Positions 13,771 to 56,100 of a stretch of 64,000 nt of DNA are shown here, in pieces (positions within the stretch are counted from its first letter, which is position 1; every line of letters begins with the position of its first letter). The notes below the pieces were generated by a model. The model saw only the letters and a program-made list of their open reading frames with translations, searched no databases and was not told where the DNA came from. Made by a program: the position numbers and the translations under genes. Source of the stretch: Rudanella paleaurantiibacter (GTDB taxonomy: Bacteria; Bacteroidota; Bacteroidia; Cytophagales; Spirosomataceae); the NCBI RefSeq assembly GCF_009184635.1, contig NZ_WELI01000010.1, positions 1-64,000 on the forward strand. Direction: 5' to 3'.

Positions 13771-13996
13771 GGCAGTAGGCAGTGGCAGTAGGCAGAAAAG
13801 TTAGCAGTAGGCAGGGGCGGTAAGCAGTAGGCAGTGGCAGTAGGCAGAAAGGTTAGCAGTATGCAGTGGCAGTAGGCAGTAAAGTTAGCGTAGACAGTTT
13901 CACTAGCAGCTGACAGTACTATTTACGCGTCAGCCACTGCCTACTGCCACTGCATACTCCTCTCTCTGCTTACTGCCTACTGCTTACCGCCCCTGC
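13771..13996. repeat. Intergenic tandem-unit inverted repeat A (between lptF-like gene and rpsO)
   Basis: Units of 6-7 bases related to GGCAGTA fill 13771-13880, and their complement fills 13936-13996. Two perfect nested arm pairs are visible: 13811-13835 with 13972-13996 (25 bp) and 13858-13880 with 13936-13958 (23 bp). The right arm runs into the 3' end of the LptF/G gene: its stop TAG (13977-13979) and last five codons are part of the repeat. Reading in the gene's direction, the G/A-rich arm comes first after the stop. See the finding on the whole family. Confidence 0.9.
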
Positions 13997-15485
13997 TTGC
14001 TGCCCACTTCCGGCGAAGCCGCTCCCAGGCAATCACGTACACATCTTTATCGAACAGCCGGGAATCGTGCCGGGCCTGATACATAAAATACAGCCCTACG
14101 GGTAGTAGCAGCACGTTGGCCATCCAGGCACCGGCCGGTACCCAAAGCACCCCATCTTTGGCAAATTTGTCGCCATTGAGGGTGAGTACGTAGAGTAGGA
14201 TGAAGAAGATGATGGAAACAAGCACAGGCAGGCCAAAGCCTCCTTTTTTGATGATGGCACCCAGCGGAGCCCCAATCAGAAACATGATGAACACCGAGAT
14301 CGCCTGCGTAAACTTGTGGTGCTTCTCGAGCTCATATTTATAAACCTGCCGTTGTTTCTCCTGTAGATACACGACGTTGGAGTTAGCGTAACTCTGCACG
14401 CTCTGCGCCTGTAATAGAGCTGTAGCGGCCAGTTCATGAGGGCGATAGCTACTCTTCTTCATCACCGAGTCGACCCAGGGGCCATCTTTCAATACAGTGG
14501 TTGAGCTAACCGGCGTAGCTGTGGGGCCCTCATTCCGGAACTGATAACTGTAGTATTGCCGTGAGGAGTTGGCTACGTTGAGGGCGGTACTGCGGAAATC
14601 TTTCTTAAGAGAATCGGTGATGGTAGTTAGCTCGCCCAGATTTTTCATGTACTCGTGGTACTCAAACTGCTGCTCGTCGGTGCGGTGAATGCCAAACGAT
14701 TCGAGGCCGATAACCAGCTTATAATGCCCAAAGCTGTTACGGATAAACTGAGAGGATTGGTTAGGGGTGCCGTTGCTGGCGTAGCTAACATTGTTTGGGT
14801 CTGACTGCTCCTGATAGTCGTTGCCATTATAAAGCTCAAATACCAGATACGAGCGGTCTTTGTCGGTGTACATACGCCCCGAATCGGCCAGAATTACCTC
14901 CCGGTTACCCGACTCAATCCCCGAAGTGGCGTGTTTGTAGATGATAAGCCCCTTGAGCAGGTCGCCGGTAGTGCTGTTGGGGTCGGTGGTAATCTTCTTA
15001 TCGACTTTGATGCTGTAACCCGGCAGGTCGTTGTAAAATATGCCTTCTTTCAGGTTCAACGTGGCCTTAGCAGTTTTAATATCGTATAGCAGACTATACC
15101 CCTTAAGGTTGGCCCAGGGGGCTACCACATTGTTGAACCAGAAGGAAAAGCCACTGATCAAAACGGCTACAATGAGCAGCGGGCGCATGGCGCGTGTGAG
15201 CGAAATGCCCGCACTTTTCATCGCCGTCAGTTCAAAAAACTCACCCAGGTTACCATACGTCATGAGCGACGATAGCAACGTAGCCAGCGGCAGAGCCGTA
15301 GGAATGGTCAACAGGGAAAAGAAAAACAGAACCCGCCCAAACGTTATCAGGTCAACATCCTTCGATACGAAATCGTCGATGTAGAACATCAACAAGCGCA
15401 TCAGAAAGATAAAAATGACCACACAGAGGGTCAGCACAAACGGTCCCCAGAACGATGAGAGGATAAGCTTGTCTATTTTTTTCAA
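13977..15485 (-). CDS. LptF/LptG family permease
   Basis: 502-residue inner-membrane protein of the YjgP/YjgQ family, which forms the membrane part of the LptB2FG exporter that extracts lipopolysaccharide. Three N-terminal helices (LILSSFWGPFVLTL, then TIPTALPLATLLSS, then a third near 95-115) and three C-terminal helices (with FIMFLIGAPLGAIIKKGG) flank a periplasmic region of about 240 residues, larger than in E. coli proteins (about 360 in all). The start is probably TTG at 15485 (MKKIDKLIL), since no in-frame ATG precedes the first helix. The last codons and stop lie inside inverted repeat A, and the start touches inverted repeat B. Confidence 0.88.
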   Translation of the reverse strand: MKKIDKLILSSFWGPFVLTLCVVIFIFLMRLLMFYIDDFVSKDVDLITFGRVLFFFSLLTIPTALPLATLLSSLMTYGNLGEFFELTAMKSAGISLTRAMRPLLIVAVLISGFSFWFNNVVAPWANLKGYSLLYDIKTAKATLNLKEGIFYNDLPGYSIKVDKKITTDPNSTTGDLLKGLIIYKHATSGIESGNREVILADSGRMYTDKDRSYLVFELYNGNDYQEQSDPNNVSYASNGTPNQSSQFIRNSFGHYKLVIGLESFGIHRTDEQQFEYHEYMKNLGELTTITDSLKKDFRSTALNVANSSRQYYSYQFRNEGPTATPVSSTTVLKDGPWVDSVMKKSSYRPHELAATALLQAQSVQSYANSNVVYLQEKQRQVYKYELEKHHKFTQAISVFIMFLIGAPLGAIIKKGGFGLPVLVSIIFFILLYVLTLNGDKFAKDGVLWVPAGAWMANVLLLPVGLYFMYQARHDSRLFDKDVYVIAWERLRRKWAASRGGKQ

Positions 15486-15578
15486 TGGATAATGGTTAAT
15501 GTAGAATGGAAAACGAGTTCGTTAGCAGAACGCGCCTGCCCCGATGAATTGTTCATTATTCATCGCCCATTATACATT
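15484..15578. repeat. Intergenic heptad inverted repeat B (START-like gene to LptF/G gene)
   Basis: Minus-strand reading from the upstream stop gives successive 7-base units GTATAAT, GGGCGAT, GAATAAT, GAACAAT. The opposite arm (15484-15509) reads on the plus strand as GGATAAT, GGTTAAT, GTAGAAT units. The two 26-base arms match at 19 positions. One arm begins at the stop codon of the START-like gene (15580-15582) and the other ends on the TTG start of the permease gene. Confidence 0.75.
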
Positions 15579-15579
15579 T

Positions 15580-15972
15580 TTAACTACCGACAATCTCGCG
15601 GAGTTTTTCCATCAGGCCATCCCAAAGGTCTTGTAAGTCTTCCGGGTCGGTGTTGGTCGAGTAGTCGGTTATGCGGAGATACGTGGATTGTGTCAGTTCG
15701 CTTTGGTCGACCCGAAAGTCCACATAGTTATTATCGTGCCCATTTTCGGCGGTGTCCAGAAACTCGAAGCGGACGCTTTTATTTTGGCGGAGCGACACTT
15801 GACGGGCAATGTGGCTCTCGTTATCCCAGAGAAAGTCGAACCGGTGTTCGGGGAGGGTATTTACTTTGGCTGCAAACCACTGCGACAGGCCCGAGGCCGT
15901 GCTAATATAAGGAAACAGCATTTTGGGCGAGGCCCGAAGCTCGTATTCGGTCACAAACTTAAACTTCTCCAT
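15580..15972 (-). CDS. START-like (SRPBCC fold) domain protein
   Basis: 130 residues beginning MEKFKFVTEYELRASPKMLFPYISTASGLSQWFA, described here in two parts: the strand-turn VTEYELRASP and the helix LFPYISTASGLSQWF. This N-terminal pattern, with PEHRFDFLWDNE and a long C-terminal helix (LQDLWDGLMEKLREIV), matches the START-like/AHSA1 proteins conserved in Bacteroidota. The fold binds hydrophobic ligands or chaperones, but no function is established. Start ATG at 15972; an upstream extension (to 16050) would overlap the tRNA promoter region and looks uncoded. Co-directional with the LptF/G gene 94 bases on. Confidence 0.8.
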   Translation of the reverse strand: MEKFKFVTEYELRASPKMLFPYISTASGLSQWFAAKVNTLPEHRFDFLWDNESHIARQVSLRQNKSVRFEFLDTAENGHDNNYVDFRVDQSELTQSTYLRITDYSTNTDPEDLQDLWDGLMEKLREIVGS

Positions 15973-16040
15973 ATCAATTTGGTAGCATAGGGCTATGGGC
16001 AAAGGTAAAATTTTTTTGATGCGAAAGACAAACCTACCCC

Positions 16041-16070
16041 TTGCGCACAAAATAATTTTCCGTACTTTTG
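16041..16070 (+). promoter_or_regulatory. Promoter of the tRNA-Met gene (TTG - 19 bp - TACTTTTG)
   Basis: TTG at 16041-16043 and TACTTTTG at 16063-16070 are separated by exactly 19 bases, the textbook Bacteroidota sigma-A arrangement. The box ends 11 bases before the mature tRNA. It is the best-formed promoter in the window. Confidence 0.8.
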
Positions 16071-16081
16071 CACTACAAAAC

Positions 16082-16155
16082 GGCGGGGTAGCTCAGATGG
16101 TTAGAGCGTAGGATTCATAACCCTAAGGTCGGCAGTTCGATCCTGCTCCCCGCTA
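16082..16155 (+). tRNA. tRNA-Met (anticodon CAT)
   Basis: Cloverleaf: acceptor GGCGGGG (16082-16088) with CCCCGCT (16148-16154) and discriminator A; D stem GCTC/GAGC; anticodon loop TTCATAA with CAT at 16116-16118; T stem GGCAG/CTGCT around TTCGATC. CCA is not encoded. The acceptor starts with a G-U pair and the anticodon stem is closed by an A-C mismatch. The lack of three G-C pairs in the anticodon stem and the paired 1-72 position argue against an initiator. Elongator Met and Ile2 (lysidine-modified CAT) cannot be told apart by eye; elongator Met is more likely. Confidence 0.93.
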
Positions 16156-16159
16156 CTAC

Positions 16160-16197
16160 AAAAAGCAGTTATAGGTCAGTCCTGTAACTGCTTTTTT
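16160..16197 (+). terminator. Terminator of the tRNA gene
   Basis: AAAAGCAGTTATAGG pairs with CCTGTAACTGCTTTT (one G-U) around a 5-base loop, followed by T. It lies 5 bases after the tRNA. Confidence 0.9.
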
Positions 16198-16283
16198 GTT
16201 TGGTGTTTGGCTGGGGAGGCAATTGCTCACGCGCCCAATTTCAGGCCAAACATGCCAGAAGGTACAAACCGATGTGCACTTTC

Positions 16284-16826
16284 CTACCCGTTTGCCCCGA
16301 ACTTTTTAGGCCACAGATTGAGTCGCTCCTGTAACCCAATGATACAGAGGGGGAAGAACAGAAGGAGTAAAAAGTTGGCTACCCGATCGCTGTTTGAAGG
16401 TTGGGATACGGATTCGGCATAGCTCAACCCATTCGCCACAAAGTAGATACTGTACAGGAGAGCTACGAGGTAAATGATCGTTCCGTAGGTATCGAATAGT
16501 TCAACGGGGATATTGGTCAGCAGGTGGGGGGCTACATAAAACAGCTGTAACCGCAGTACTGGCTCGGCAACGGTCAGAATCTGAATAAACAGGGCCAACA
16601 TGAACAGACTAAATTCGGTCTGGCGCGGAAGGTGGCTTGTTTTGGTGAGAAAATTGACGATAGCCCAAAACCATATAACACGCACAAGCGTCACCCAGGC
16701 ACTACCAATCTGCGAAACAGTGGCATCGATATACGAATCATCAAACGGAATAGCTTTCAGGAGAATCATTGGAGCCATTGTGAGGATAAACAACGGCCAT
16801 GTTTTAAGGCGTAGAATTGTATTCAT
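16284..16826 (-). CDS. Membrane protein of unknown function
   Basis: 180 residues starting MNTILRLKTWPLFIL. About five hydrophobic segments are visible (WPLFILTMAPMILL, WVTLVRVIWFWAIV, LFMLALFIQIL, TIIYLVALLYSIYFV, FLLLLFFPLCIIGL). I do not recognise a family. The alternation of short polar loops and the C-terminal basic end (ERLNLWPKKF) suggests a simple integral membrane protein. The start at 16826 is preferred to 16922, since the extra 32 residues are not membrane-like. It stands alone, 166 bases downstream of the secreted Asp-box protein gene on the same strand. Confidence 0.6.
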   Translation of the reverse strand: MNTILRLKTWPLFILTMAPMILLKAIPFDDSYIDATVSQIGSAWVTLVRVIWFWAIVNFLTKTSHLPRQTEFSLFMLALFIQILTVAEPVLRLQLFYVAPHLLTNIPVELFDTYGTIIYLVALLYSIYFVANGLSYAESVSQPSNSDRVANFLLLLFFPLCIIGLQERLNLWPKKFGANG

Positions 16827-16992
16827 GTGTGGAAATGGTGAATGATACGGGGTCAATATAGGTGTATTACAACAGAAAGTAGCTTTTATGGCTCCTTTTT
16901 TTGGTAGGGTGGGGCAGAACAATTCGGGGTTGGAGTCGGGCCTTTGTATGACCTAACCCCAACCCCGAATTAGTACCCTAACGGCGCGTTAT

Positions 16993-19900
16993 TTACTGCG
17001 CGTTGATAGCGGGCATGCGTTGCTCGGCCACCATTTGGTTGAACGCCGGAATCTGCTTTTGGACTAACTCTTTCAATTTGCCCAAGGCGGTATCGGCTTG
17101 CTTCGATAAGTCTTCAAACACCGTGTACGACGCCTTGGTGGGCTTCGTATCGGCCGATGAGACCACCGAGGCCACCCCGGCCAATTTGTCGTTCAGGCGA
17201 ATGGGGTAAGCCAACGCGTCCTGAAACGCCTTCGATTTGGGCTGCATCAGCGTCGACTCCAGCTGATCGAGTTCATCGAGCATGGGTTTGGTTGCTTTCT
17301 TGAACTTTTCAGCCACCGATGGGTCTTTCACGTCTTTCAGGTAGCCGTTGATCTGGTTGCGAATCTGCCGGATCTGATTTACGCCCTTGTGCGTTTCCGA
17401 AATTTTGTTGTTTATCTTCTGCAACAGCTCGAACTGAGCGCGGTAATCGTCGGCACTGGTATTGATTTTTGGGTTCTTCCGAATCTCAATGGGCTGCTCG
17501 CCTACCACCTTGTTATCAATTAGCAACTGCACTTTGTACATGCCGGGTACTACTTTAGCCCCGGTTCCGCGGCCGGTCCACATGATGTTGGTGCCTTCTA
17601 CGGCCGTAGCGTCGGGGTAGCGCATATCCCACAAAAAGGTGTTCAGACCCGGTTTAGTGGCTACCACGTCGGCGCGTTCATTGTCAGCATCTTCGTAAAA
17701 GTCTTTGATTACTTTCAGTGGCTGCCCTTTCTTGTCCTTCTGGCTGGAGTACGAGATAATGGTGTCGCCCACGGTAGTCATGAACAACAGCTTCACCTCT
17801 TTGTCGGGTTTCGCGTTTAGTGCATACCGCACCAGCACACCGTTGGGTGCATTTTCTCCCTGATCGGTGGGGGCACCGCGTCGGCCACCTGCGCCCCCAT
17901 CCATCCGGTACGCATGGCGGGGTTTGAACAAATGGGCGGTTTTATCGGCAATCGGTGAGCCTGTGTTGGCGGCCATCTCATGGAGGGGCGTAACGTCGTC
18001 CATGATCCAGAACGAGCGGCCGTGTGTAGCTACCACAAGATCTTTCTCACGTTTGTGAATTTGCAAATCGCGTATAGGCGTAATGGGCAGGTTCAGGTTA
18101 AGCGGTTGCCACGAAGCCCCGTCGTTGAACGATACATACACGCCCCGTTCGGTACCGGTATAAAGCAGGCCGGGTTGGTTGGGGTCTTCGCGCACCACAT
18201 GACAATACTCGTCGGCCGGAATCCCGTTCGTGATGGGGGTCCAGGTTTTGCCGTAGTCGGTGGTTTTGAGCAGGTACGGCTTACGGTCGCCCGACATGTA
18301 GCGTTTAGCGGCTACGTAGGCCTTGCCCGTGGTATGGTCGGAGGGGTGGATAATGCTAATCAGGGCCCACTCCGGCACGAGACTGGTAGAAGGGGTAATT
18401 TTTTGCCAGGTTTTGCCCGCATCCCGGCTGATGTGCATCAGACCATCGTCAGAACCGGCCCAGTACACGCCTTTTTCGAGGGGCGACTCCGCAAACGAGT
18501 ACACTGTGGGGAAGGTCTCGGCACCCGTGTTGTCTTTGGTGATTGGGCCGCCGGTGTCACCCTGCGTTTTGGGGTCGTTGCGGGTCAGGTCGGGGCTAAT
18601 GTCTTCCCACGAATGGCCGTTGTCGGTGCTGCGGTGCACAAACTGCGAGGTACAGAACAGGACGTTGTTATCGTGGGGCGAAAAAACAATGGGGTAGGTC
18701 CACTGGAACCGGTATTTCCGGGCCGACGACGGTGCCCCCATGCTGTATTCGGGGTACACGTTGACCACCTGATTCTGGTCGTTGTTTTTGTCGTAGCGGG
18801 TTATCAAACCGTCGTAGCTGCCGCCAAACGTCACGTTCACATCCTTAGGGTCGGGGGTGATGTACCCCGACTCGCCCCCTGCTACCGACCACCAATCGCT
18901 TGGGCCGATGGAGTAGCCCGTGGTGCGGCTCGCAATCCGAATCGATGAGTTGTCTTGCTGAGCCCCGTACACGTTGTAGGGAAAATCGTTGTCGAGGGCT
19001 ACGTGGTAAAACTGGGCTGTCGGGATGTCGATATCCGAAAAGGTAGCCCCGCCATTGTACGTTACCTCGCCACCGCCATCGTCAGCGATAATGTAATTCT
19101 GCGGGTTTTTAGGGTTCCACCAGATGTCGTGCGTATCGCTGTGGTGCACCGGGATATTGGTGAAGGTTTTACCGCCATCGGTCGATTTGAGGGCGCTCAC
19201 ATTGAGCACAATCAGCCCGTTCTCGTTTTGCGGGTCGGCGGCCAGCATCATGTAGTACCAGGGCCGCTGCCAGAGGTTTTTGTCTTCGTTAATCAGCTGC
19301 CAGCTGTTGCCCGCATCGTCGGAGCGGTACAGGCCTCCCTTGGCACTCTCAATCATGGCATACAACCGGTTCGGGTTTGCCGGGGATACCGTAATGCCGA
19401 TTTTGCCAAGCATCCCTTTGGGCATCCCGGGCCGGTTGTTCAGGCTTACCCAGGTATCGCCCCCGTCGGTCGATTTGTACAGGCCACAGCCCGGACCGCC
19501 ACTGCTCATCTGGTAGCTGTTGCGGTAGGCCTGCCAAAGCGAAGCGTACAACACCCGTGGGTTGCTCGGGTCCATTTTGATGCAGGCCGCACCGGTGCTG
19601 TCGTTTTTCGAGAGAATGTGCTGCCACGTTTTTCCGCCATCGGTTGTACGGAAAATACCCCGCTCCTTGTTGGGGGCAAACGGGTTGCCGAGGGCCGCCA
19701 CGTAGGCAATGTCGGGGTTTTGCGGGTGTACCTCAATGTTGCCGATGGCGTCGGCCATTTTGAGACCTATGTGTTTCCACGTCTTCCCGGCATCGGTCGA
19801 TTTGTAGACCCCGTCGCCATTAGCAATGTTCCCCCGAATTTCGGCCTCACCCATGCCTACGTACAGCACGTTGGGGTCGGAGGGGGCCACGGTAATGGCA

Positions 19901-21193: not shown

Positions 21194-22228
21194 TCAATGA
21201 AGTACATCAAACACCAGTTCGCGCAGGATGTCGCTTTCGCTCATGGTAGGGCAGTCGATACCTTTGGAGCGGGCGTCGGCCCGGCGGATGGCGTGCACAA
21301 TGTCGGCAACTTTAGCAATCGGGAACGTGCGTGCGGCCGCGAGGTAGTCTTTCACAAAAAATGGATTGACGCCCAGCACCGAGGCCAGCCCCTTCTCAGA
21401 CTGATCGCGCGATGACTGCACCAGTAGCACCTTGGCAAAATAACCGTAAAGTTGCGCCAGAATCACAACCAATGGATTGTCTTTTGGGTTACGGCCGAAA
21501 TAATCGATAATTCGGTTCGCTTTCACCACATCGCGCTGCACGAGGGCTTTTTGTAGCTCAAATACGTTGTACTCCCGGCTGATGCCCACGAGTCGTTCGA
21601 CGGTGGCCGCCGAAATTTCTTCGTTGACGCTCAGGTTGAGCAGAATTTTGTCGATTTCGCCCGCCAGCCGCTTCAGGTCGTTACCAATCGAATCGGCCAG
21701 TAACTGACACGCCTTGGGGCTTACTTTTACGCCCTGCTTGTGGCAGTAATCGGCTACCCAGTCGACGAGTTTGTTTTCGTAGAGTTTTTTGATGCCCAGC
21801 AGTACGCCCTTGTTTCCAAAGGCTTTAACCCAGGTTTTTCGCTCATCGACGCCCGATTTGCCGTCTTCTTTGTTGAAACAGAGCATCAGAATGGTGCTCG
21901 ACAAGGGGTTGAGGGCGTAGTCTTCGAGCAGCTGAGCACTCGATTTATCGTTCAGCCCCCCCATTTGCTGAGCTTCTTTCACAAGCACCAGCTGACGCTC
22001 GGCCATGAACGGATACCGCCGGGCGTAGTTGATAACGGCCCCGACGTCGGTGTCTTTACCGAACAGAACGAACTGGTTAAACCCTTTTTCGGCAACCGGG
22101 ATAGCTACTTTTTCAAGCTGATCGGCAATTAGGTCAAGGTAGTAAGGCTCATCGCCATGAATGAGATAAACCGGGGCAATGCGTTTGTTTCGGATGTCTT
22201 TCAGCAGCGTTTCGACGGCGGGAATCAT
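21194..22228 (-). CDS. holA: DNA polymerase III delta subunit
   Basis: 344 residues. Delta opens the beta sliding clamp as part of the clamp loader. The start has the family pattern APVYLIHGDEPYYLDLIADQL, split as VYLIHGDEPYYLDL, followed by NQFVLFGKDTDVGAVINYARRYPFMAERQLVLVKEA (described: the RYPFMAERQLVLVKEA strand-helix). The AAA+ -like region, then a helical lid (LKRLAGEIDKILL) and the collar domain (PKDNPLVVILAQLYGYFAK) follow. ATG at 22228 is used; a TTG 27 bases upstream is possible. Upstream on the same strand lies an unknown exported protein 101 bases away. Confidence 0.93.
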   Translation of the reverse strand: MIPAVETLLKDIRNKRIAPVYLIHGDEPYYLDLIADQLEKVAIPVAEKGFNQFVLFGKDTDVGAVINYARRYPFMAERQLVLVKEAQQMGGLNDKSSAQLLEDYALNPLSSTILMLCFNKEDGKSGVDERKTWVKAFGNKGVLLGIKKLYENKLVDWVADYCHKQGVKVSPKACQLLADSIGNDLKRLAGEIDKILLNLSVNEEISAATVERLVGISREYNVFELQKALVQRDVVKANRIIDYFGRNPKDNPLVVILAQLYGYFAKVLLVQSSRDQSEKGLASVLGVNPFFVKDYLAAARTFPIAKVADIVHAIRRADARSKGIDCPTMSESDILRELVFDVLH

Positions 22229-25650: not shown

Positions 25651-25732
25651 GAGTGAATGAGTGAATGAGCGATTGAGGGATTAGTACTGCATCAGTTTAC
25701 CACTCAATCACTCAATCGCTCAATCACTCATT
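25651..25732. repeat. Intergenic inverted repeat C (TetR gene to UbiB-like gene)
   Basis: Built from 8-base units: GAGTGAAT, GAGTGAAT, GAGCGATT, GAGG on the plus strand (25651-25678) and their complement in 25701-25732. About 21 of 22 bases pair between the facing parts (25656-25677 with 25711-25732). The stop TGA of the TetR gene (25728-25730) lies inside one arm and the UbiB-like start codon is 9 bases beyond the other. Confidence 0.88.
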
Positions 25733-35290: not shown

Positions 35291-35382
35291 AGGAGTGAGG
35301 AGATAGGAGTGAGGAGTGAGAATACTGACACTTACGCTTGTGGCGGAGCATTCTCACTCCTCACTCCTATCTCCTCACTCCT
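35291..35382. repeat. Perfect 33-bp heptad inverted repeat D inside the RND operon
   Basis: Left arm 35291-35323 and right arm 35350-35382 are exact reverse complements (33 of 33) around a 26-base loop. The unit is 7 bases: GGAGTGA, GGAGATA, GGAGTGA, GGAGTGA, then GAAT. The right arm stops 2 bases from the adaptor's stop codon (35385-35387); the left arm ends 10 bases before the pump's start codon. Confidence 0.95.
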
Positions 35383-38122: not shown

Positions 38123-38187
38123 TACTTCAGGCTTCCGTACAGAAGCAGGTTGTGTATTGAGTAGTCAAGCAGAGTTAAATGGAGAAT

Positions 38188-38257
38188 GAACAATGTACAA
38201 TGTATAATGAGTGGCTGATTGTCAACAGATAGCCTAATGACGCATTGTACATTGTTC
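38188..38257. repeat. Intergenic heptad inverted repeat E (after the exported amylase gene)
   Basis: Plus-strand units GAACAAT, GTACAAT, GTATAAT (38188-38208) face their complement. GAACAATGTACAATG (38188-38202) and CATTGTACATTGTTC (38243-38257) are exact reverse complements (15 bp). The right arm ends 6 bases from the amylase stop codon (38264-38266). Confidence 0.88.
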
Positions 38258-38263
38258 AATCAC

Positions 38264-40126
38264 TTACTTCTGCAACTCCAGCAGCAGGGCCGTTTGGGCT
38301 GGCACGTTGAGCGTGGTGAGGTTTGAGATTACCTCGCCCGTCAGCACATTGCGAGCGCGGCTGTAGCCTCTCAGGCGCTCGGCAAAACGGGCGGTTTCAA
38401 CGGTTGCGTCTTTTTTGCCGCTGTTCATAAACACCATCACGGTTTGGGCGTCGGTGTAACGAGCGTAGGCATACACGTTGTTTTGGGGCAGAAACTGCAT
38501 CAGCTTGCCCGTTTTCAGGGCCGCCGACTGCTTGCGGTACTGACCCAGCTGCCGCACAAAATCAAACACGTCGTTTTCGACTTTGGTACGCCCGGCAGCC
38601 GTGAATTTGTTCGCTTTATCGTCGGCAAAGCCCCCCGGAAAATCCCGGCGAACCTCGGCATCAGAGGGGTCTTTAAAGTTCTTCATCAGCACTTCGGTTC
38701 CGTAGTAAATCTGCGGAATACCCCGGCTCGTCATCAGAAACACCAGCCCCATTTTAAACTTGTTCATGTCCTCGCCAATCACTGAGAAATACCGGTCGGT
38801 GTCGTGGTTATCGAGGAAAATAAGGTTGCGCGATGCGTCTTTGTACAGATAATCCTGCGCCAGTACACTGTACACCGTTTCGGGATTGTCGCGCTTAAGG
38901 GTTTCGTTCAGGGCGTTGTAGACCTGAAAATCCATGCCACCGGGCAGGTTGCATTTAAACGATGATTCGATGTTGTTGCGGGTGAAATAGGCCTGATTCG
39001 GTACGCTGCCTACCCACGACTCGCCAAACAGGTGAATGTTCGGGAAGTTGTCGAGCAAAGCCTGATTGCACCGGTTCATAAACGCCAAATCGTTGTAAAT
39101 GTACGTGTCGATGCGCCAGGCGTCGATGCCGAACTCTTCGACCGTCCAGAGGGCGTGCTGAATGAGGTAGTTGGCCACTACCGGGTTTTTCTGGTTCAGG
39201 TCGGGCAGGTGAGGCACAAACCAGCCGTCGAGGGTCACTTTTTTGTCCAGTTCCGACGCGTACGGGTCCAGCAGGGGCTGATCTTTATACGACGTATTGG
39301 TGTACGTCGGCCATTGATTGAGCCAGTCTTTGGCCGGCATGTCCTTGAGCAGCCAATGGTTGGCCCCCACGTGGTTGTACACCGCGTCCTGAATAATCTT
39401 GATGCCTTTTTTGTGGGCCTCGTTCACCAGTTTCTTGTAGGCCTCATTGCCGCCCAGCCGCCGGTCTACCCGGTAATGGTCGGTGAAACCGTACCCGTGG
39501 TAAGCCGAGCGCATGGCACCGCCCTCGTTGGTCAGGGGCTGATCGTTTTCGATAACCGGGTTGAGCCAAAGGGCCGTTACGCCCAGCTCGTTGAAGTAGT
39601 CGAGGTGGTTGATAATGCCCTGCAAATCGCCCCCGTGCCGGTAGTATGGGTTGTTTCGGTCGGCGTTAGGGTCGGCCATATCGGGAAACTTGTCGTTGGA
39701 GGGGTCGCCGTTTGAGAACCGGTCGGGCAAAATTAGGTACACCAGATCGGCCGAGGTGAGGCCCTGCACACGGTCGCGGCTCCGGTCGCGGGCGGCAATC
39801 CGGTAGTTGTGCGTAATGGTTTGTCCGCCTACCGTAAACAGGAGCGGAACAGTCCCCGGCTTAGTCGTTGGGGCAATGGTCAGGTCAACCGCGACGTAGT
39901 TGGTGTTGGGTAAAGAAGTGATTTTGCCAACCGTGATGCCCGGATACCGCGTACTCACCTTCGCTTTGCTCAGGTTTTTACCGTACACCAGCAGCTGGAG
40001 TTTAGGGTCTTTCATGCCCACCCACCAGTTGGTTGGGTCAACCCGTTGAATACGAGCATCCTGCGCCAGAAGCGTAGCGGCCGAAAGCCCCAGCAGGCAA
40101 AGCAGGGTTACACAGAATTGTTTCAT
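38264..40126 (-). CDS. Exported GH13 alpha-amylase family enzyme (neopullulanase/SusA-like)
   Basis: 620 residues with a signal peptide (LLGLSAATLLAQ). An N-terminal beta-sandwich of cyclomaltodextrinase type (about 25-115) precedes a GH13 barrel. GH13 signatures: DAVYNHVG (region I), DAWRIDTY with the nucleophile Asp (region II), HLFGESW with the acid/base Glu (region III) and FLDNHDTDR with the third Asp (region IV). Such enzymes cut alpha-1,4 links in maltodextrins or pullulan in the periplasm, as SusA does in Bacteroides. No SusC/SusD pair is adjacent. Divergent from the cytosolic GH13 gene, with 149 bases between them. Confidence 0.92.
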   Translation of the reverse strand: MKQFCVTLLCLLGLSAATLLAQDARIQRVDPTNWWVGMKDPKLQLLVYGKNLSKAKVSTRYPGITVGKITSLPNTNYVAVDLTIAPTTKPGTVPLLFTVGGQTITHNYRIAARDRSRDRVQGLTSADLVYLILPDRFSNGDPSNDKFPDMADPNADRNNPYYRHGGDLQGIINHLDYFNELGVTALWLNPVIENDQPLTNEGGAMRSAYHGYGFTDHYRVDRRLGGNEAYKKLVNEAHKKGIKIIQDAVYNHVGANHWLLKDMPAKDWLNQWPTYTNTSYKDQPLLDPYASELDKKVTLDGWFVPHLPDLNQKNPVVANYLIQHALWTVEEFGIDAWRIDTYIYNDLAFMNRCNQALLDNFPNIHLFGESWVGSVPNQAYFTRNNIESSFKCNLPGGMDFQVYNALNETLKRDNPETVYSVLAQDYLYKDASRNLIFLDNHDTDRYFSVIGEDMNKFKMGLVFLMTSRGIPQIYYGTEVLMKNFKDPSDAEVRRDFPGGFADDKANKFTAAGRTKVENDVFDFVRQLGQYRKQSAALKTGKLMQFLPQNNVYAYARYTDAQTVMVFMNSGKKDATVETARFAERLRGYSRARNVLTGEVISNLTTLNVPAQTALLLELQK

Positions 40127-44281: not shown

Positions 44282-44395
44282 AAGCAGTGAACAGTAGGCA
44301 GTGAACAGTTTTTTCAGTTATCAATGCATAACAAACGCGTATTCACCGGTAACTTTCGAGGGTACACCGTTCGCTGTTCACGGTTCGTTGTTCAC
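44282..44395. repeat. Intergenic heptad inverted repeat F (divergent sucC / LolD-like starts)
   Basis: Plus-strand units GTGAACA, GTAGGCA, GTGAACA (from 44287) face a right arm (44371-44395) whose complement reads GTGAACA, ACGAACC, GTGAACA. About 16 of 22 bases pair, so the match is weaker. Unlike the others it lies between two start codons; its right arm ends 14 bases before the LolD-like ATG. Confidence 0.65.
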
Positions 44396-44408
44396 GTATA
44401 ACTCATTT

Positions 44409-50049: not shown

Positions 50050-50946
50050 ATGAACAATCGCTTTCACGGTGTCGGAGTGGCTATCGTCACGCCATTTCAC
50101 GCCGACCATTCTATTGATTTTGACGGCTTTGGCCGTCTGATTCAGCACGTCTCAGACGGAGGAGTGCGCTACATCGTGCTGCAAGGCACAACCGGCGAGT
50201 CGCCGACGGTGACGAAAGCGGAAAAGAAACAGTTGTTGCAGTACCTGAAGGAGAATAATCCGAAACAGCTGCCCATCGTGTACGGGGTAGGGGGAAATGT
50301 GACGCCCGACGTTGTGAACACGCTTAAAGAAACTGACCTCGAAGGCGTTGACGCCATCCTGTCGGTTTGTCCATATTACAATAAACCGGGTCAGCGGGGG
50401 GTGATCGAACACTTCACCCGTGTGGCCGATGCCTCGCCGGTACCCGTAATTCTGTATAACATTCCGCCCCGGACCGGCATCAACATGACCGCCGAGACCG
50501 TTTGTACGCTGGCCCAGCACCCCAACATCATCGGAGTAAAGGAGGCTTCGTGCATTATTGAGCAGTGCATGGAAATTGCCCGCGACAAGCCGGAAGATTT
50601 CCTCCTTATCTCGGGCGACGATGTGCAGGCTGTGCCCATCATCAGTATCGGGGGCGTGGGCGTGATGTCGGTTATTGCCAACGCTTTACCAGCCCGGTTC
50701 AGCGCTCTCGTCGATGCTGCCTTGCACGGTGATTTCGCTTTTGCGTCGAAAGAACTGGGTCATTTCCTGCGTATCGATCCCCTGTTATACGAAGAAGGCA
50801 ACCCAGTTGGGGTGAAAAACATCCTTGAAATTATGGGCCTCATTGAGGGGCATGTTCGGTTGCCGTTGATGAAAGCATCGGATAGCCTGAGCGAGCGGCA
50901 GCGGGCCGTGCTTCAGCAGGATCACCTGCTCGAACTGGTCGCGTAA
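50050..50946 (+). CDS. dapA: 4-hydroxy-tetrahydrodipicolinate synthase
   Basis: 298 residues. Condenses pyruvate with aspartate semialdehyde, first step of the lysine/diaminopimelate branch. The TIM-barrel features are GVGVAIVTPFHADHSIDF, the LQGTTGESPTV loop, the proton-relay Tyr in VPVILYNIPPRTGIN (described: ILYNIPPRTG) and the Schiff-base Lys in IGVKEASC. ATG 50050 is the start; a TTG lies just before it. 78 bases after ligA on the same strand. An imperfect -7 (CATCTTTG, 50026-50033) precedes the start. Confidence 0.95.
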   Translation: MNNRFHGVGVAIVTPFHADHSIDFDGFGRLIQHVSDGGVRYIVLQGTTGESPTVTKAEKKQLLQYLKENNPKQLPIVYGVGGNVTPDVVNTLKETDLEGVDAILSVCPYYNKPGQRGVIEHFTRVADASPVPVILYNIPPRTGINMTAETVCTLAQHPNIIGVKEASCIIEQCMEIARDKPEDFLLISGDDVQAVPIISIGGVGVMSVIANALPARFSALVDAALHGDFAFASKELGHFLRIDPLLYEEGNPVGVKNILEIMGLIEGHVRLPLMKASDSLSERQRAVLQQDHLLELVA

Positions 50947-51002
50947 GTAATAGAGCGATTGAGCGAGTTTCCAAAGAGTGAGACAAGTACCCCGAGATTT
51001 AA

Positions 51003-51024
51003 TGTGCACGACTTGTGCACGACT
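51003..51024. repeat. Two tandem copies of an 11-base unit
   Basis: TGTGCACGACT occurs twice in a row (51003-51013 and 51014-51024), in the gap after dapA. Within each copy GTGCAC is a palindrome. No function is known. Confidence 0.8.
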
Positions 51025-51048
51025 CGTTGAATGGCCGCCAAAATTTTT

Positions 51049-51108
51049 AAGCCCCCAGCGGAGCGTAACAACCCAAGTGGTTTCTGTTACGCCCTGCTGG
51101 GGGCTTTT
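51049..51108. terminator. Long hairpin downstream of dapA
   Basis: 51049-51070 pairs with 51085-51106 (AAGCCCCCAGC with GCTGGGGGCTT, then two mismatches, then GCGTAACA with TGTTACGC) around a 14-base loop, followed by TT. Likely the dapA terminator. The remainder of 50947-51270 has only the tandem 11-base repeat and no gene. Confidence 0.8.
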
Positions 51109-51270
51109 GCTGTCAAAATGTGCTTTCGAGCGCTGGTCGACGAGTAGTTGGTGGGCAGGCTTAGGAAGGATGAGGTAAGCGAAACAAGTAGTTGCAGGCT
51201 TTCCTAACTTTTTACACAAGATCACCACATGTACGTCGATCAACCGACTACCCCCTTTACAACATACCGT

Positions 51271-52503
51271 ATGAGAAGGTTAAAGGCAGGGGCTTCCCTG
51301 ATTTGTTTTTTTCTATTCACTCTTCTGGTTTCCAAACCCGTTACCGCCCAGACCAATTCGCCATCGGCGGCTCCGTTTACCCTCAAAAAAGGTGACCGCG
51401 TGGTGTTTGTAGGCAATTCCCTCTTTGAAAACGACGTTCAGTACGGGTATCTGGAACTGGCCCTGACCACCCGCTGGCCCGACAAAGAGGTTACGTTTCG
51501 GAACATTGGCTGGACCGGCGACAACGTGTACGGTGTAGCCCGCAGCACTATTACCAACCCGCCCACGGCCTACGAACTACTCATGGAACACCTGACCAAG
51601 GCGCAGCCGACGGTTGTGTTTATTGGTTACGGCAACATTGAAGCGCAGGAGGGCGAAGCCGGTTTGCCCCGGTTTGTTGAAGGCTTGAATAAACTGGTGG
51701 ATAAGGTAGACCAACTGGGGGCGCAGGCAGTGCTGCTGTCGACGATTCCGGTGTTGTCTGACTCTATTCCCAACCGGGCTGAGTACAACGCCATGTTGCA
51801 GCGATACGCCGGGGCAATTGCCAAAATAGCCACCGACCGGGGCAAACGGTACGTTGATCTGTTCGGTCCGTTGGCGGCTATCCCCGACAAGCGAACCATC
51901 ACCGAAAACGGTATCCACCTGAACGAAGCAGGCTACTACCGACTGGCCACCCTACTCGAAGACCGGCTGGGCCTACCCGCGCGAAATGAGGCCATTCAGG
52001 TAACGGTGGGTAAGGCTTCGGTCGATGCGTCGGGGCCGGTGCGGGCGGCAACCGCTGACCCAAAAGCCGAGCGGATTCAGTTTACCGTAGATGAACGCCT
52101 GTTGCCACTGCCCAAACCCACCGACCCGCAGGCTGTGCCCGAAAAAGGGAATGTTCTGACCGTGAAGGGCTTGAGAAAAGGCTATTACACCCTCCATATT
52201 GACAAGGCCGAGGTCGTGACGGCATCGGCCAATGATTGGGCCAATGGCGTCGAAATTCGGCAGGGAAGCAGCGTAGAACAGGCCCGCGACCTGCGTCACC
52301 TGATCAATAAAAAGAACGAGCTGTTTTACTTTCAGTACCGGCCGCTCAACACCACGTATATTCTCGGCTTTCGCTCGTACGAGCAGGGCCGGCACGTGAA
52401 AGGACTCGAAGAGCAGAACTTTATTATCCGGTGGCTTGAAAGTCAGATTTCGCTTACCCGCACCCCCAAACCAAGAGTTTATCAACTTACCCTTTTGAAG
52501 TAA
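51271..52503 (+). CDS. Exported SGNH/GDSL-family hydrolase
   Basis: 410 residues, signal peptide MRRLKAGASLICFFLFTLL then KPVTAQ. SGNH enzymes are esterases with a Ser-His pair. Here block I is FVGNSLFEN, so the usual GDS is GNS with the Ser kept; block III is IGYGNIEA; block V is ENGIHLNEAGY with the His, but the Asp two residues before it is Asn. Whether it is catalytic is open. ATG 51271 follows the signal peptide; an in-frame ATG at 51229 adds 14 residues. The heme-binding dehydrogenase gene begins 10 bases after its stop, a pair seen repeatedly in Bacteroidota and Planctomycetes. Confidence 0.85.
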   Translation: MRRLKAGASLICFFLFTLLVSKPVTAQTNSPSAAPFTLKKGDRVVFVGNSLFENDVQYGYLELALTTRWPDKEVTFRNIGWTGDNVYGVARSTITNPPTAYELLMEHLTKAQPTVVFIGYGNIEAQEGEAGLPRFVEGLNKLVDKVDQLGAQAVLLSTIPVLSDSIPNRAEYNAMLQRYAGAIAKIATDRGKRYVDLFGPLAAIPDKRTITENGIHLNEAGYYRLATLLEDRLGLPARNEAIQVTVGKASVDASGPVRAATADPKAERIQFTVDERLLPLPKPTDPQAVPEKGNVLTVKGLRKGYYTLHIDKAEVVTASANDWANGVEIRQGSSVEQARDLRHLINKKNELFYFQYRPLNTTYILGFRSYEQGRHVKGLEEQNFIIRWLESQISLTRTPKPRVYQLTLLK

Positions 52504-52513
52504 ACCGAACGTG

Positions 52514-55500
52514 ATGAAAACAAGCTGGTTTCCCAAGCCCCTCTCAACCCTGTTGAGCGTCCCGGTTTTTCTGATTCTTACCGCCACCGTTCATCAGGAG
52601 AATCTGACCGATATTCCGAAGCCCGACATCAAGCGCGAACTCGAATCGTTTAAGATTGCCGATGGTTTCGAGGTTACGCTTTTTGCCGCCGACCCGCTCG
52701 TGGCCAAGCCCATTCAGATGAACTGGGATGCCGACGGGCGGTTGTGGGTTGTGAGTAGCACAGCCTACCCGCACCTTAAAACCGGCGAAGAGGCCAACGA
52801 TAAAATCTTTGTACTCGAAGATACCGATGGCGACGGCAAGGCCGACAAGTCGACCATTTTTGCCGAAGGGCTGCTCACCCCCACGGGTATTTTGCCCGGC
52901 GACGGGGGCGTGTACGTAGCCAATTCGACCGAAATTCTGCACTTTGCCGATACCGACGGCGATGGTAAAGCCGACCAACGACGTCGGATTGTGAACGGTT
53001 TTGGAACGGCCGATACCCACCACCTCATTCATACGTTCCGCTGGGGTCCCGAAGGGCTACTGTATTTCAATCAGTCAATTTACATCTACAGCCACGTCGA
53101 AACTCCCTCGGGGATCAAGCGGCTCGAAGGCGGTGGGGTTTGGCAGATGAACCCCAAAAAGCGCGAGCTTGATGTGTATGCCAAAGGGCTTGTGAACCCC
53201 TGGGGGCTGCAATTCGATAAATGGGGGCAGTCGTTTTTGACCGACGGTGCCGGGGGCGAAGGGATCAACTACGCGTTTCCCGGTGCTACGTTTGTTACCG
53301 CACCCGGTGCGGCCCGTATTTTGCGCGGCCTGAACCCAGGGCAGCCCAAACACTCCGGGCTCGAAGTGGTGTCGGGGCGGCACATGCCCGATTCGTGGCA
53401 GGGTACGCTCGTTACCAATGATTTTCGGGCGAACCGAATCAACCGGTTTAAACTCGAAGAGCAGGGGAGCGGCTATGCCTCGCGGCAGCTCGACGATTTG
53501 CTCTGGACGGATAACGTAGCGTTCCGGCCCGTTGATATTTCGGTAGGTCCCGACGGAGCCATCTACGTAGCCGACTGGTACAACCCAATTATTCAGCACG
53601 GTGAGGTTGATTTTCACGATCCCCGGCGCGACCAGGAGCATGGTCGTATCTGGCGTATTGTGGCTAAAAACCGGCCTTTGGTGAAAAAGCCCCCCCTGAG
53701 CAAAGCGTCGGTGAGTGAGTTGCTCGACATGCTCAAACTTCCCGAAGACTGGACCCGCCTACAGGCCAAACAGGTGCTCAAAGCACGTGGCGCTGCCGAG
53801 TTAATCCCGGCCCTGCGGCAATGGGTGGATGGGCTGGATAAAAATCACCCTGACCATGAGCACCACCTGCTCGAAGCACTCTGGACGTACCAAACGCTCG
53901 AAGTGGCCAATGAACCGTTGTTGTTGCGGCTCCTGAACGCGCAAAACCACCGGGCGCGGGCTGCGGCCCTGCGTGCCTTGCAGGTATGGCCGGGTAAGGT
54001 TGCCAATGTACCCGCCCTGCTTACGAAGGCGGTGGCCGATCCGCACCCACAGGTTCGGCTCGAAGCGGTGATTGCCCTGCGACAGATAAAAACTCCCGAA
54101 GCGGTGCGGACGGCTCTGGCGGCATTGGATAAACCAATGGATGAGTTTCTGGATTTTGCGCTCTGGCAAACCGTTCGCGAAGGAGAGACGTACTGGGCTC
54201 CCCGGCTAAAAACGGATGCCGACTTTTTCGGGTCACCCCAGAAAACGGTTTTCGCCCTCAAATCGGTGAGTAGCCCCGAGGCCGTAGCGCAATTGGCCCG
54301 GATGTACGGTCAAAATCAGGTGCCTGCCGAGTACCAGAAAGATGTGCTGGCCTCCCTGGCAAAATTTGGTAAACCCGCCGATCTGTCGGTGGTATTCGAC
54401 AAGGCGTTGCAGCAAACAGCGGACTCGAAAACGGTGGCTGCCCAGTTGGGCGCGTTGGAAGAGGCCGCCCGCCGGGGCGAAAAACCATCGGGTAACAACG
54501 CCCGGCTAACCGGTTTGATGAATAGCGACGACGAAGCGGTGGCTGCCAGTGCCGTTCGGCTGCTGGGCCTGTGGAAGATGGAAGACCAAACCACTACGCT
54601 CACGGCTCTGGCTCGTAAAGACGATAAAACGTTGCGTAAAGCGGCTCTCAGCTCACTGGCCGCCATGAATAGCGACGTTGCCCGCCAAGCCCTGGCCGAT
54701 ATGACCGGTGCCAAAAATCCGGTCGAGCTGCGGCTGGCGGCAGCGGCTCAACTGGCTGTTGCTAATCCGGCTGAGGCTGCCCCAATAGCGGGCAACCTGC
54801 TGCGTACCTTACCCGCCGACACCGACGTGACCGATTTGTTTAGGGCGTTTCTGGTGCACAAACAGGGGGCTCGTATGCTGGCTGAAGAACTTACGGCCCG
54901 CAAGGTTCCGGCCGCTCTGGCTACGGTGGGTCGACAGGCAATGCAGCGCCATGTGCCCTGGAATCGGCGCGGTGATGAAACCGTGGCGCAGCTCATTAAG
55001 GCAATTGAGGCATCGGGCGGGGTATTACCGGCCGAAAAAATGCCGCAGGAGCTGAGTGCGTCAGATATTGCGGCCATGGCGAAAGTGGTGAAAGAAACCG
55101 CCGACCCGGTCAAAGGTGAGATGGTGTACCGGCGTGCGGGTTTGGCCTGTCAGTCGTGCCATGCCATTGGTGGGGCTGGCGGGCGCATTGGCCCCGACCT
55201 GAGTAGCCTTGGTACCAGCTCACCGGCCGAAACCATTATTCGCTCGATTCTGTACCCCAGCCAGTCCATTAAAGAAGGATATGAATTGCAGCGGGTGGCC
55301 AAAAAAGACGGCTCCGAGCTGATGGGGTATCTGGTCAGCAACGGCACCTCCGATATTGTTCTGCGCGACGTAACGGGGGCTGAGGTATCAGTTCCGAAAA
55401 GCCAGATCAACGTGATTGAGAAAGTGCCGGGCTCGCTCATGCCTGCCGGACTGACGGCTACTCTGGACAAAGAGGAGTTTATGAATCTGGTGAGTTTTCT

Positions 55501-55993
55501 GACCAAAATGGGTGAATCCGGGCAGTTCCGCGTGCCCAATACGCGGTTTGTGCGTCGGTGGAGCACGGTAGCGCCTTCGCCCGAATTGAGCCGTAAACTC
55601 CGCGACGAAGGGCTGGGTTATCTGGTCCGTGACAATGCCAAACTGGCCGCTCAACCAATCTACAGCACCGTAGCGGGCTCGGTTCCCGTGGCCGAGTTAC
55701 CTGTTATTGAACTGGCTGGTGGGCGTCGGCACAGTGTGGTCCGGTTCGACCTGGAGGTGCTGACCAAAGGCAATGTGAATCTGGACCTGAGCACAACGGC
55801 TGGCCTGACCGCCTGGGTGGGCAACCGTCCCCTCAAACTGACCGACCGGGGCACCCTGCTCGAACTACCCGCGGGTATGCATACCGTGACCCTTGCCATC
55901 GACCGGAATCTGCAAAAGGAGGGCATGTTCAATGTGCAGCTCGGCGAGGCCGACAAAGCGCCCGCCCAAACCCGATTAGTAATGGGACGTTGA
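52514..55993 (+). CDS. PVC-type heme-binding dehydrogenase with HEAT repeats
   Basis: 1,159 residues, exported. Order: signal peptide, a six-bladed beta-propeller dehydrogenase domain (about 40-390; DADGRLWVVSSTAYPHL and VGPDGAIYVADWYNP mark blades), HEAT-like helical repeats (about 400-860), then a cytochrome c-like domain with the heme motif CQSCH (about 880) and the distal-Met region. A carbohydrate-binding-like end follows. Such proteins likely oxidise sugars or alcohols at the cell surface and pass electrons to heme c. ATG 52514 is chosen; GTG 52511 is in frame. The stop (55991) lies in inverted repeat G. Confidence 0.88.
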   Translation: MKTSWFPKPLSTLLSVPVFLILTATVHQENLTDIPKPDIKRELESFKIADGFEVTLFAADPLVAKPIQMNWDADGRLWVVSSTAYPHLKTGEEANDKIFVLEDTDGDGKADKSTIFAEGLLTPTGILPGDGGVYVANSTEILHFADTDGDGKADQRRRIVNGFGTADTHHLIHTFRWGPEGLLYFNQSIYIYSHVETPSGIKRLEGGGVWQMNPKKRELDVYAKGLVNPWGLQFDKWGQSFLTDGAGGEGINYAFPGATFVTAPGAARILRGLNPGQPKHSGLEVVSGRHMPDSWQGTLVTNDFRANRINRFKLEEQGSGYASRQLDDLLWTDNVAFRPVDISVGPDGAIYVADWYNPIIQHGEVDFHDPRRDQEHGRIWRIVAKNRPLVKKPPLSKASVSELLDMLKLPEDWTRLQAKQVLKARGAAELIPALRQWVDGLDKNHPDHEHHLLEALWTYQTLEVANEPLLLRLLNAQNHRARAAALRALQVWPGKVANVPALLTKAVADPHPQVRLEAVIALRQIKTPEAVRTALAALDKPMDEFLDFALWQTVREGETYWAPRLKTDADFFGSPQKTVFALKSVSSPEAVAQLARMYGQNQVPAEYQKDVLASLAKFGKPADLSVVFDKALQQTADSKTVAAQLGALEEAARRGEKPSGNNARLTGLMNSDDEAVAASAVRLLGLWKMEDQTTTLTALARKDDKTLRKAALSSLAAMNSDVARQALADMTGAKNPVELRLAAAAQLAVANPAEAAPIAGNLLRTLPADTDVTDLFRAFLVHKQGARMLAEELTARKVPAALATVGRQAMQRHVPWNRRGDETVAQLIKAIEASGGVLPAEKMPQELSASDIAAMAKVVKETADPVKGEMVYRRAGLACQSCHAIGGAGGRIGPDLSSLGTSSPAETIIRSILYPSQSIKEGYELQRVAKKDGSELMGYLVSNGTSDIVLRDVTGAEVSVPKSQINVIEKVPGSLMPAGLTATLDKEEFMNLVSFLTKMGESGQFRVPNTRFVRRWSTVAPSPELSRKLRDEGLGYLVRDNAKLAAQPIYSTVAGSVPVAELPVIELAGGRRHSVVRFDLEVLTKGNVNLDLSTTAGLTAWVGNRPLKLTDRGTLLELPAGMHTVTLAIDRNLQKEGMFNVQLGEADKAPAQTRLVMGR

Positions 55994-55994
55994 T

Positions 55995-56100
55995 GAGTGA
56001 ATGTACAATAGACGTATAATGGATAATGTACAATGCAAAATAGGGAGTAGGTTATTAACTTGACTGTCAAACTATTAATTGTTCATTGTTCATTGTATTC
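55995..56100. repeat. Intergenic heptad inverted repeat G (after the heme dehydrogenase gene)
   Basis: Units GTACAAT, GTATAAT, GGATAAT, GTACAAT, GCAAAAT run from about 56001 to 56041. The right arm (56078-56099), read as its complement, gives GAATACAAT, GAACAAT, GAACAAT. Pairing is imperfect. The arm begins right after the stop codon TGA (55991-55993), and two further TGA/GTGA lie within 10 bases. Confidence 0.7.

Follow-up and report, generated by a model that had tools for sequence, protein, structure and literature searches.

Hairpins of tandem 7-8-base units behind stop codons in Rudanella: junctions at which a hairpin can persist while its arms are exchanged

Hairpin sites in the window

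The window analysed here opens contig C33 in the 6.72-Mb genome of Rudanella paleaurantiibacter; its 64 kb carry seven intergenic hairpins (sites A to G) whose arms consist of short tandem units. Hairpins of this kind form a genome-wide class, and comparison with a sister genome of the same genus (G001, 88-91% identical to the window along its length) shows that at orthologous junctions a hairpin can persist while its arms are exchanged. The seven sites had been reported by a first-pass annotation, and every one of them is present in the sequence.

Site A (13771..14009, genes on the minus strand) is built of GGCAGTA/GCAGTGG-type units and separates an lptF/G-like gene (stop 13977) from rpsO (start near 13710-13755). 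Its inner part, GGCTGACGC, is similar to a recurrent tip described below, and the sister carries at the same position a hairpin of GTGAACA/ACGAACA-type units. Site B (15484..15578), of AATG-type 7-base units, occupies the whole space between a START-domain gene (stop 15580) and the lptF/G-like gene (TTG start 15485); its sister copy is nearly identical. The start of the lptF/G-like gene (13977-15485) is an apparent TTG, reached by the predicted stem of site B. Site C (25651..25732) consists of GAGTGAAT-type 8-base units between a TetR gene, whose stop (25728) lies inside an arm, and an ABC1 kinase gene (start 25642). At site D (35291..35382), GGAGTGA/GGAGATA 7-base units join an HlyD gene (stop 35385) to an AcrB gene, whose ATG lies 10 nt past the hairpin. 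Site E (38157..38266), of AATGTAC units, adjoins the stop (38264) of an alpha-amylase-family gene and is a full-length copy, 74% identical, of the dispersed beta element of about 118 bp discussed below. Site F (44282..44396), of GTGAACA/GTAGGCA units, lies in a divergent space (starts 44206 and 44409) and is conserved in the sister. Finally, site G (55995..56100) has degenerate AATG-type units past the stop (55993) of a DUF7133/HEAT gene in a convergent space, and is conserved in the sister apart from a 7-nt indel. A 24-bp perfect stem at 56119-56182 is separate from it.

Tandem units have a period of 7 or 8 at all sites except F, where the period is 14. Ungapped inverted repeats are found at A, C, D and E, among the 25 longest of the 33 in the window. 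Folded in gene direction and compared with 100 dinucleotide shuffles, the sites give z scores of -10.6 (A), -3.6 (B), -7.5 (C), -14.6 (D), -4.1 (E, folded at 38185-38261), -3.1 (F) and -2.9 (G). For genome-scale counts we listed ungapped stems with an arm of at least 14 bp, at least 85% pairing and a loop of at most 120 nt, and called a listed stem periodic when its best period was 6-9 with at least 60% arm self-match. Under this strict definition only C, D and E (3/7) are periodic, the remaining four sites being more degenerate.

Six of the seven arms had been placed at a stop codon. This stands for sites A to E, as A and C overlap the upstream stop and the ends of B, D and E lie at most about 5 nt from theirs. 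It stands with reserve for G, where the repeats start about 2 nt past the stop and predicted pairing begins only some 20 nt past it. Site F sits between two start codons with no stop codon adjoining.

Abundance, placement and unit types

The class was surveyed in a two-genome sample of about 1.6 Mb (784 kb of the window genome and 815 kb of the sister). Genes were taken from a home-made caller with approximate start positions (the AcrB start was put 33 nt late), which left 849 tandem, 203 convergent and 202 divergent spaces. This sample contains 347 stems, 105 of them periodic, and 104 of the periodic stems are intergenic: 72 in tandem, 28 in convergent and 4 in divergent spaces. Spaces of at least 35 bp hold 300 stems including 100 periodic ones, as against 2-5 stems and 0-1 periodic stems in ten dinucleotide shuffles; the class is real.

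As first described, unit sequences differ and the architecture is constant: eight unit types can be distinguished, with no sequence common to them. The best period of the 104 intergenic stems is 7 in 63, 8 in 30, 9 in 10 and 6 in one. Sorted by simple motif rules, they comprise 24 GAGTGAAT-like, 24 AATGTAC-like, 12 GTTTATGG-like and 9 polypurine hairpins, 8 with 9-base ACGCGGATG-like units, 7 GGAGTGA, 7 GTGAACA/GGCAGTA, 5 GACATTAGAC and 8 others. Types differ in location, since 22/24 GAGTGAAT-like hairpins are in tandem spaces and 7/9 polypurine hairpins in convergent ones. The GAGTGAAT type also fits its spaces tightly: the space minus the hairpin measures at most 30 nt in 17/22, compared with 12/114 for other stems. 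Stops at GAGTGAAT-type junctions show no preference for TGA (9/24 vs 336/1258, p = 0.25).

The proposed tie to stop codons is borne out in tandem spaces, where 59/72 hairpins are closer to the stop and 12/72 closer to the start, and where 50 lie within 20 nt of the stop compared with 37.6 under random placement in the same spaces. In convergent spaces, stop distance is no better than random (left stop within 20 nt in 15/28, 15.3 expected). The arms are also strongly polarized: the 5' arm has more G than C in 94 periodic stems and more C than G in 10, compared with 111:75 in other stems. The purine-first polarity is thus real, but it does not point along the gene, as had been supposed, because an inverted repeat is identical when read from either strand. 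The idea that the units supply stop codons in all three frames is only partly upheld. Stop triplets are dense in 5' arms (86 per kb, vs 67 +- 2 in shuffled 5' arms, 44 in plain post-stop sequence and 21 in 3' arms), but all-frame stops occur in only 17/128 arms.

To follow the class beyond the genus, we grouped 56 loci bearing the polynucleotide phosphorylase (PNPase) gene by record title. The window's PNPase is closest to records titled Cytophagales metagenome-assembled genome (MAG), 'Flavobacterium sp.', Rudanella, Fibrisoma, Arsenicibacter and Spirosoma. In the NCBI taxonomy, Cytophagaceae includes Spirosoma and Rudanella, and Spirosomataceae includes Dyadobacter; both families belong to Cytophagales. 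The relatives used here are handled as one family. One record, NZ_JAPQNS010000001.1 (L052), is titled Flavobacterium sp. SUN052; its PNPase is 92% identical to that of the window, so the record name is probably wrong. Fourteen loci of Spirosoma, Fibrella, Fibrisoma and allies have 14 periodic stems; the 11 that are intergenic all lie in tandem spaces, G-rich first and closer to the stop. Thirty Dyadobacter loci have 26, with 22 intergenic (10 tandem, 9 convergent, 3 divergent); among the latter, G exceeds C in 17 and C exceeds G in 5, and 9 are closer to the stop vs 1 to the start. Four loci from Runella, Arcicella and a MAG yield 4 periodic stems, and eight other Bacteroidota loci (115 kb) a single one, not intergenic.

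The two main genomes contain 56 and 75 periodic stems per Mb, compared with 1 in 342 kb of other genera of the family (18 stretches, one of 1.9 kb) and 2 in 276 kb of other Bacteroidota families (15 stretches, two short). Presence throughout the family is therefore rejected in favour of a patchy distribution. An exact GAGTGAAT hairpin pattern is found in 2/395 genomes of the phylum, the window genome and one of its family, and is too strict to represent the class.

Exchange of arms at orthologous junctions

We paired 565/612 window-genome spaces with their sister counterparts, using stems with arms of at least 16 and scoring arms as conserved at 70% or more. Among tandem pairs with a sister space of at least 60 nt, the window genome has a hairpin in 61, with arms conserved in 44 and not conserved in 17. 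At 12 of these 17 the sister nonetheless carries a hairpin, compared with 32/210 of the spaces lacking a window-genome hairpin (p = 2e-6). The same comparison gives 4/5 vs 7/26 in convergent and 0/3 vs 2/85 in divergent spaces, and among hairpin-less window-genome spaces of 60-150 nt the sister has a hairpin in 10/129.

The twelve kept hairpins comprise six changes of unit or stem type (periodic in at least one genome), two dialect shifts within one unit type and four non-periodic cases in spaces longer than 150 nt. Type changes take several forms: GAGTGATT faces GGAGTGA in the sister at C12 195012, GGAGTGA faces GAGTGAAA at 104641 and GATGAGT at 169692, AATGCAC faces GAGTGAAA at 433515, a non-periodic hairpin, CGTAGAGACGCAACATTTTGCGTCTC, faces a GAGTGAAA hairpin at C12 507963, and site A itself has GGCAGTA for the sister's GTGAACA. 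In two of the five misses (133815, 407955), visual inspection of the sister space shows a weaker stem made of different units.

Units also follow genome-specific dialects. In octamers of the form GAGYGA-NN, the final pair is AA in 1, AT in 25 and TT in 26 cases in the window genome, and AA in 34, AT in 15 and TT in 4 in the sister; the shift is seen at orthologous loci too.

Junctions across genera

The HlyD-AcrB junction of site D was matched in 57/121 genomes, and the best 30 loci were extracted, 28 of them measurable. Nine, all of one genus, are hairpin-less with a spacer of 12-13 nt. The other 19 have 61-177 nt; 14 of these have a stem of at least 10 bp (12 with an arm of at least 14) and five none. 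The stems span five genera and use GGAGTGA, GAGTGAAT-like, polypurine, AATG or other units. Their flanking gaps sum to between -6 and 24 nt for the twelve with arms of at least 14, and to 42 and 60 for the two shorter ones.

At the TetR-ABC1 junction of site C (103/121 genomes matched, best 30 examined), four loci have spacers of -4, -4, 18 and 18 nt and 26 have 37-151 nt; among the latter, arms are at least 14 in 17 and 10-13 in four, and five have no stem. Both junctions together thus leave 10/45 long spacers without a stem, and at both the hairpins of different genera are made of unrelated units. In the same-genus genome G002, the TetR and ABC1 genes overlap in an ATGA stop/start, aaATGAaagaac, and the sister reads aaATGA, 80 nt, then ATGAaagaac, the hairpin lying exactly between the two ATGA copies.

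The START-lptF/G junction of site B could be recovered from 38/56 named loci. Dyadobacter has a 1-nt stop/start overlap in 28/29 loci and 2 nt in one. Nine non-Dyadobacter loci have 87-116 nt, where the scan calls a stem of at least 10 bp only in Arcicella; the window junction folds although the stem scan did not call it. As a control we took the space upstream of gene 21194-22228, hairpin-less in the window, and counted stems up to 150 nt upstream of the aligned start: 4/20 relatives have a stem with an arm of at least 14, two of the four being tip hairpins, and the same 20 genomes have a TetR-ABC1 stem in 11. Some control starts are misplaced, since the aligned first codon is not a start codon in 7/20, and this comparison is weaker than the two-genome test.

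Pairing, folding and a possible role in mRNA

The first-pass annotation had suggested mRNA elements that end translation and fold the junction. In a fuller version, the stem past the stop would be selected to shield or end the upstream message or to set translation of the next gene, either by uncoupling it or by coupling it when a terminating ribosome opens the stem; the fold would be kept and the letters left free. We regard this explanation as possible but less likely than not.

Double changes that keep the pairing are in excess: 37 alignable periodic hairpins have 26 of them, compared with about 3.3 expected (55 vs 4.1 in other stems). They are gathered in 10/37 hairpins (18.7 at random), some spaced by the unit length. 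A fold kept for RNA should tolerate G.U over A.C on the sense strand, and this preference is absent. Single changes between species in tandem periodic stems give 49 G.U and 47 A.C, and standing mismatches within these stems give 34 and 28, in a test with moderate counts and no positive control, whose between-species counts run both directions over the same loci. Conservation for an mRNA fold is thus unsupported. The lack of bias fits a strand-symmetric process, and arm pairing looks like the product of such a process at the DNA level; a mild effect of RNA may nonetheless be present.

Other evidence keeps an RNA role alive. Hairpins with new arms at the same junctions, their rarity in divergent spaces (4/104) and the density of stop triplets in 5' arms relative to shuffles would all suit selection on mRNA, as would frequent stable folding. 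Measured against ten shuffles each, 46% of the 423 tandem spaces of 50-200 nt reach z < -2, as do 85% of the 106 convergent and 14% of the 79 divergent spaces in that length range. Long junctions reach z < -2 at 23/26 and 13/19. The existence of related species without a hairpin at the same junction speaks against it. So does the failure of two specific forms. Rho-independent terminators were rejected, as a T-run of at least 5 at the stem end is found in 11/128 compared with 44/278 other stems. A stem bridging stop to start was likewise rejected, as the unpaired path shows no shortening relative to shuffled spacers (11.5 vs 12.0; 14.0 vs 13.2).

As to the second gene, coupling by reinitiation is reported to depend on distance (PMC10666635), so that a plain 80-nt spacer should already weaken it, and the effect of a hairpin on that gene is a real question. 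According to a review, structure directly after the stop lowers coupling (PMC12548453), a point against the mRNA explanation.

Dispersed families and mobile elements

Could the hairpins instead be small mobile elements, akin to miniature inverted-repeat transposable elements (MITEs) or repetitive extragenic palindromic (REP) sequences, that insert past stop codons and replace one another? For the class as a whole we consider this unlikely; for one sub-family it holds. The AATGTAC type includes the beta element, of about 118 bp with fixed ends TAAGTGAATG and GAGTACTTA. Two sister copies face clean empty sites in the window genome, where a TA duplication fits by eye, and a strict pattern finds 12 copies in the window genome, 18 in G001 and none in G002 or G003 (reversed pattern, none). 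With fixed ends, multiple copies, target duplication and empty sites, the beta sub-family is MITE-like.

A recurrent tip could point the same way. The sequence TTGCTGACGC-N-GCGTCAGCAA is found in 21/200 family genomes and 5/36 genera, and a reversed control gives 0. From the sites listed, 40 in six genomes were inspected: arms reach at least 14 in 32, of which 28 have period 7 (self-match at least 55%) and four are non-periodic. Because these sites were chosen by their tip with arms not considered, they provide an independent check of the architecture. But one tip is carried by quite different arms in different genomes (TACGATG; GGATTTC; GGAGTTA; GATGAGT), which does not suit a mobile family. 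Within the window's genus, the arms are GGAG-type at 6/7 places in G000 and 5/5 in G001, and AATGCGT, polypurine and short at three places in G002.

The 24 GAGTGAAT-type copies, moreover, have no common flanks, ends or loops by eye; GACATTAGAC and GGAGTGA types do have outer or inner parts in common. Neither the beta ends nor the full tip were found in the roughly 1.5 kb around each of six Y1 transposase loci (2 in G000, 4 in G001), and at two of these loci a polypurine stem lies 0.8-1 kb from the gene.

Several dispersed families were met along the way. A palindrome, TTGCTGACGC..GGCCTTCGACAGGCTCAG.., mostly with TAACGTGAATTATG-like flanks, has copies at C33 82184 (L015), C33 108497, C12 219466, C12 515534 and RB 111645, and further ones at C12 139349, C12 274335 and L197. 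The copy at C33 82184 appears by eye to sit inside a beta-like element's loop, an arrangement that favours mobility. Another family, GACATTAGACGTTAGAC, with conserved outer parts (CAGT.CTGGAC.TTCGGAC), is located at C12 82975, RB 22056, RA 239835, RB 304704 and RB 530967. A 9-base-unit family, ACGCGGATGACACGGATT, is seen at C33 203308-203664 and C12 229884; one convergent space holds two of its copies at a distance of 108 bp. L184 (G000:C1 near 69,550) has a long, nearly pure G run beside a GGAG-type hairpin, possibly an assembly fault. In an Rfam scan of the window, only a small signal recognition particle (SRP) RNA at 1397-1498 (-) and a tRNA at 16082-16155 (+) reached the gathering score, with no match at a hairpin site.

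Chance simple sequence, which the short, low-complexity units might suggest, is refuted by the shuffles and has practically no probability left.

Discussion

Hairpins of tandem 7-8-base units thus constitute a real class, placed at stop codons, whose arms change in pairs and whose units are genome-specific and exchanged in place. We favour slippage and template switching as their source, with a selected RNA role second. In our estimate there is about an even chance that slippage grew the repeats, that template switching paired them, and that they are rewritten where they stand and tolerated behind stop codons. Arrays of 7-8-base units would lengthen by slippage in the spacer past a stop codon, for which an ATGA stop/start overlap, such as that of G002, may act as a seed. 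Template switching during replication, by fold-back copying, would make the second arm as the reverse complement of the first and keep the arms alike. Such copying, acting in cis from arm to arm and in trans from locus to locus, could then rewrite the units and produce genome-specific dialects, the junction retaining a hairpin as its unit sequence is substituted. Survival would be mostly past stop codons, because neither gene nor promoter is broken there. From these comparisons we infer the process itself, the copying in trans, the ATGA seed and the precedence of tolerance over an RNA role.

A more specific proposition, which we advance tentatively and at somewhat below even confidence, is that junctions inherit a hairpin without its sequence, arms being drawn from a genome-specific stock of 7-8-base units in a form of concerted evolution among dispersed sites, and that hairpins are born at ATGA-like overlaps, which they split.

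Several points weigh against slippage and template switching. Neither slippage nor copying was directly observed, and adjacent double changes within a hairpin are not clustered beyond random. Copying between loci of different units would require low-homology events. Hairpins at the same junctions across genera would also be expected under a selected function. The order of events at ATGA may also be the reverse, since G002 may have lost a hairpin between two ATGA copies. Lastly, whole-hairpin gain and loss is also common between the window genome and the sister: an orthologous space was available for 98 periodic hairpins, and the counterpart is periodic in 54, another stem in 24 and not called in 20, and clean absence is seen outside the beta family as well (RB 243852, RB 430481). 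Some of these 20 spaces still contain a degenerate copy; for 6 further hairpins no ortholog was found.

These junctions offer a genome-wide natural experiment on the origin and replacement of paired DNA structures, which the reports cited below address for RNA genes and for a single intron of cyanobacteria. At the gene boundaries of related species, shape and place can outlast letters. As presence can be conserved without sequence conservation, alignment-based searches would miss such a feature. If the junctions do affect expression, they would represent a sequence-free control element between the genes of an operon.

Comparison with known systems

Short tandemly repeated repetitive (STRR) sequences of cyanobacteria are short tandem heptamers, intergenic and capable of pairing, and an STRR stem is present in RNase P RNA. 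The loci described here share with them arm units of about 7 bases and a stem that is kept when the unit class is replaced in place. STRR-type hairpins are known from cyanobacteria, whereas the present loci are Cytophagales by record title, and we know of no tie to stop codons or in-place swap in cyanobacterial STRRs.

Porphyromonas gingivalis is a member of the Bacteroidota. Its BrickBuilt element, a MITE with a minisatellite, resembles the beta family in having tandem units within a small intergenic element, and differs by its 23-base unit, its fixed leader and tail and its distance of 49-591 nt from coding sequences (PMC4596501). TAACTGA direct repeats, reported from Beggiatoaceae, cyanobacteria and five Bacteroidetes, are likewise intergenic heptamer arrays, but consist of a single fixed unit in direct rather than paired orientation, mostly just upstream of starts in the main species (PMC4679880). 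REP sequences and bacterial interspersed mosaic elements (BIMEs) associated with REP-associated tyrosine transposases (RAYTs; GTAG and CGTC families) are multicopy intergenic palindromes, some of which supply the neighbour's stop codon; as described, they have one conserved sequence with a tag, whereas the hairpins here have no common sequence (PMC3733652). We found no single palindrome with a terminal tag, and no linked RAYT at the six Y1 loci. Template switching has been published as maker and keeper of stems in RNA hairpins (PMC8794818); the arm-copying process proposed is the same, but it is presented there as a mutation process of RNA genes and not as an intergenic class.

A literature search among open-licence papers returned no description of a repeat-hairpin class at stop codons in Bacteroidota. 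The nearest known relative of these hairpins is the P6b stem of the group I intron in Nostoc tRNA-Leu(UAA), which is made of heptanucleotide repeats of Class I (TDNGATT) or Class II (NNTGAGT) and which, in several lineages, was wholly replaced by the other motif class with its fold kept (PMC4476775). Arms of 7-base units and in-place class replacement are common to both, and NNTGAGT is similar to GGAGTGA. P6b, however, is one intron stem in cyanobacteria, whereas the hairpins described here occur many times per genome, at gene ends, in several 7- and 8-base classes and in Bacteroidota. Relative to known systems, three features are new to us: the scale, which is genome-wide, the association with stop codons and the exchange seen at orthologous junctions.

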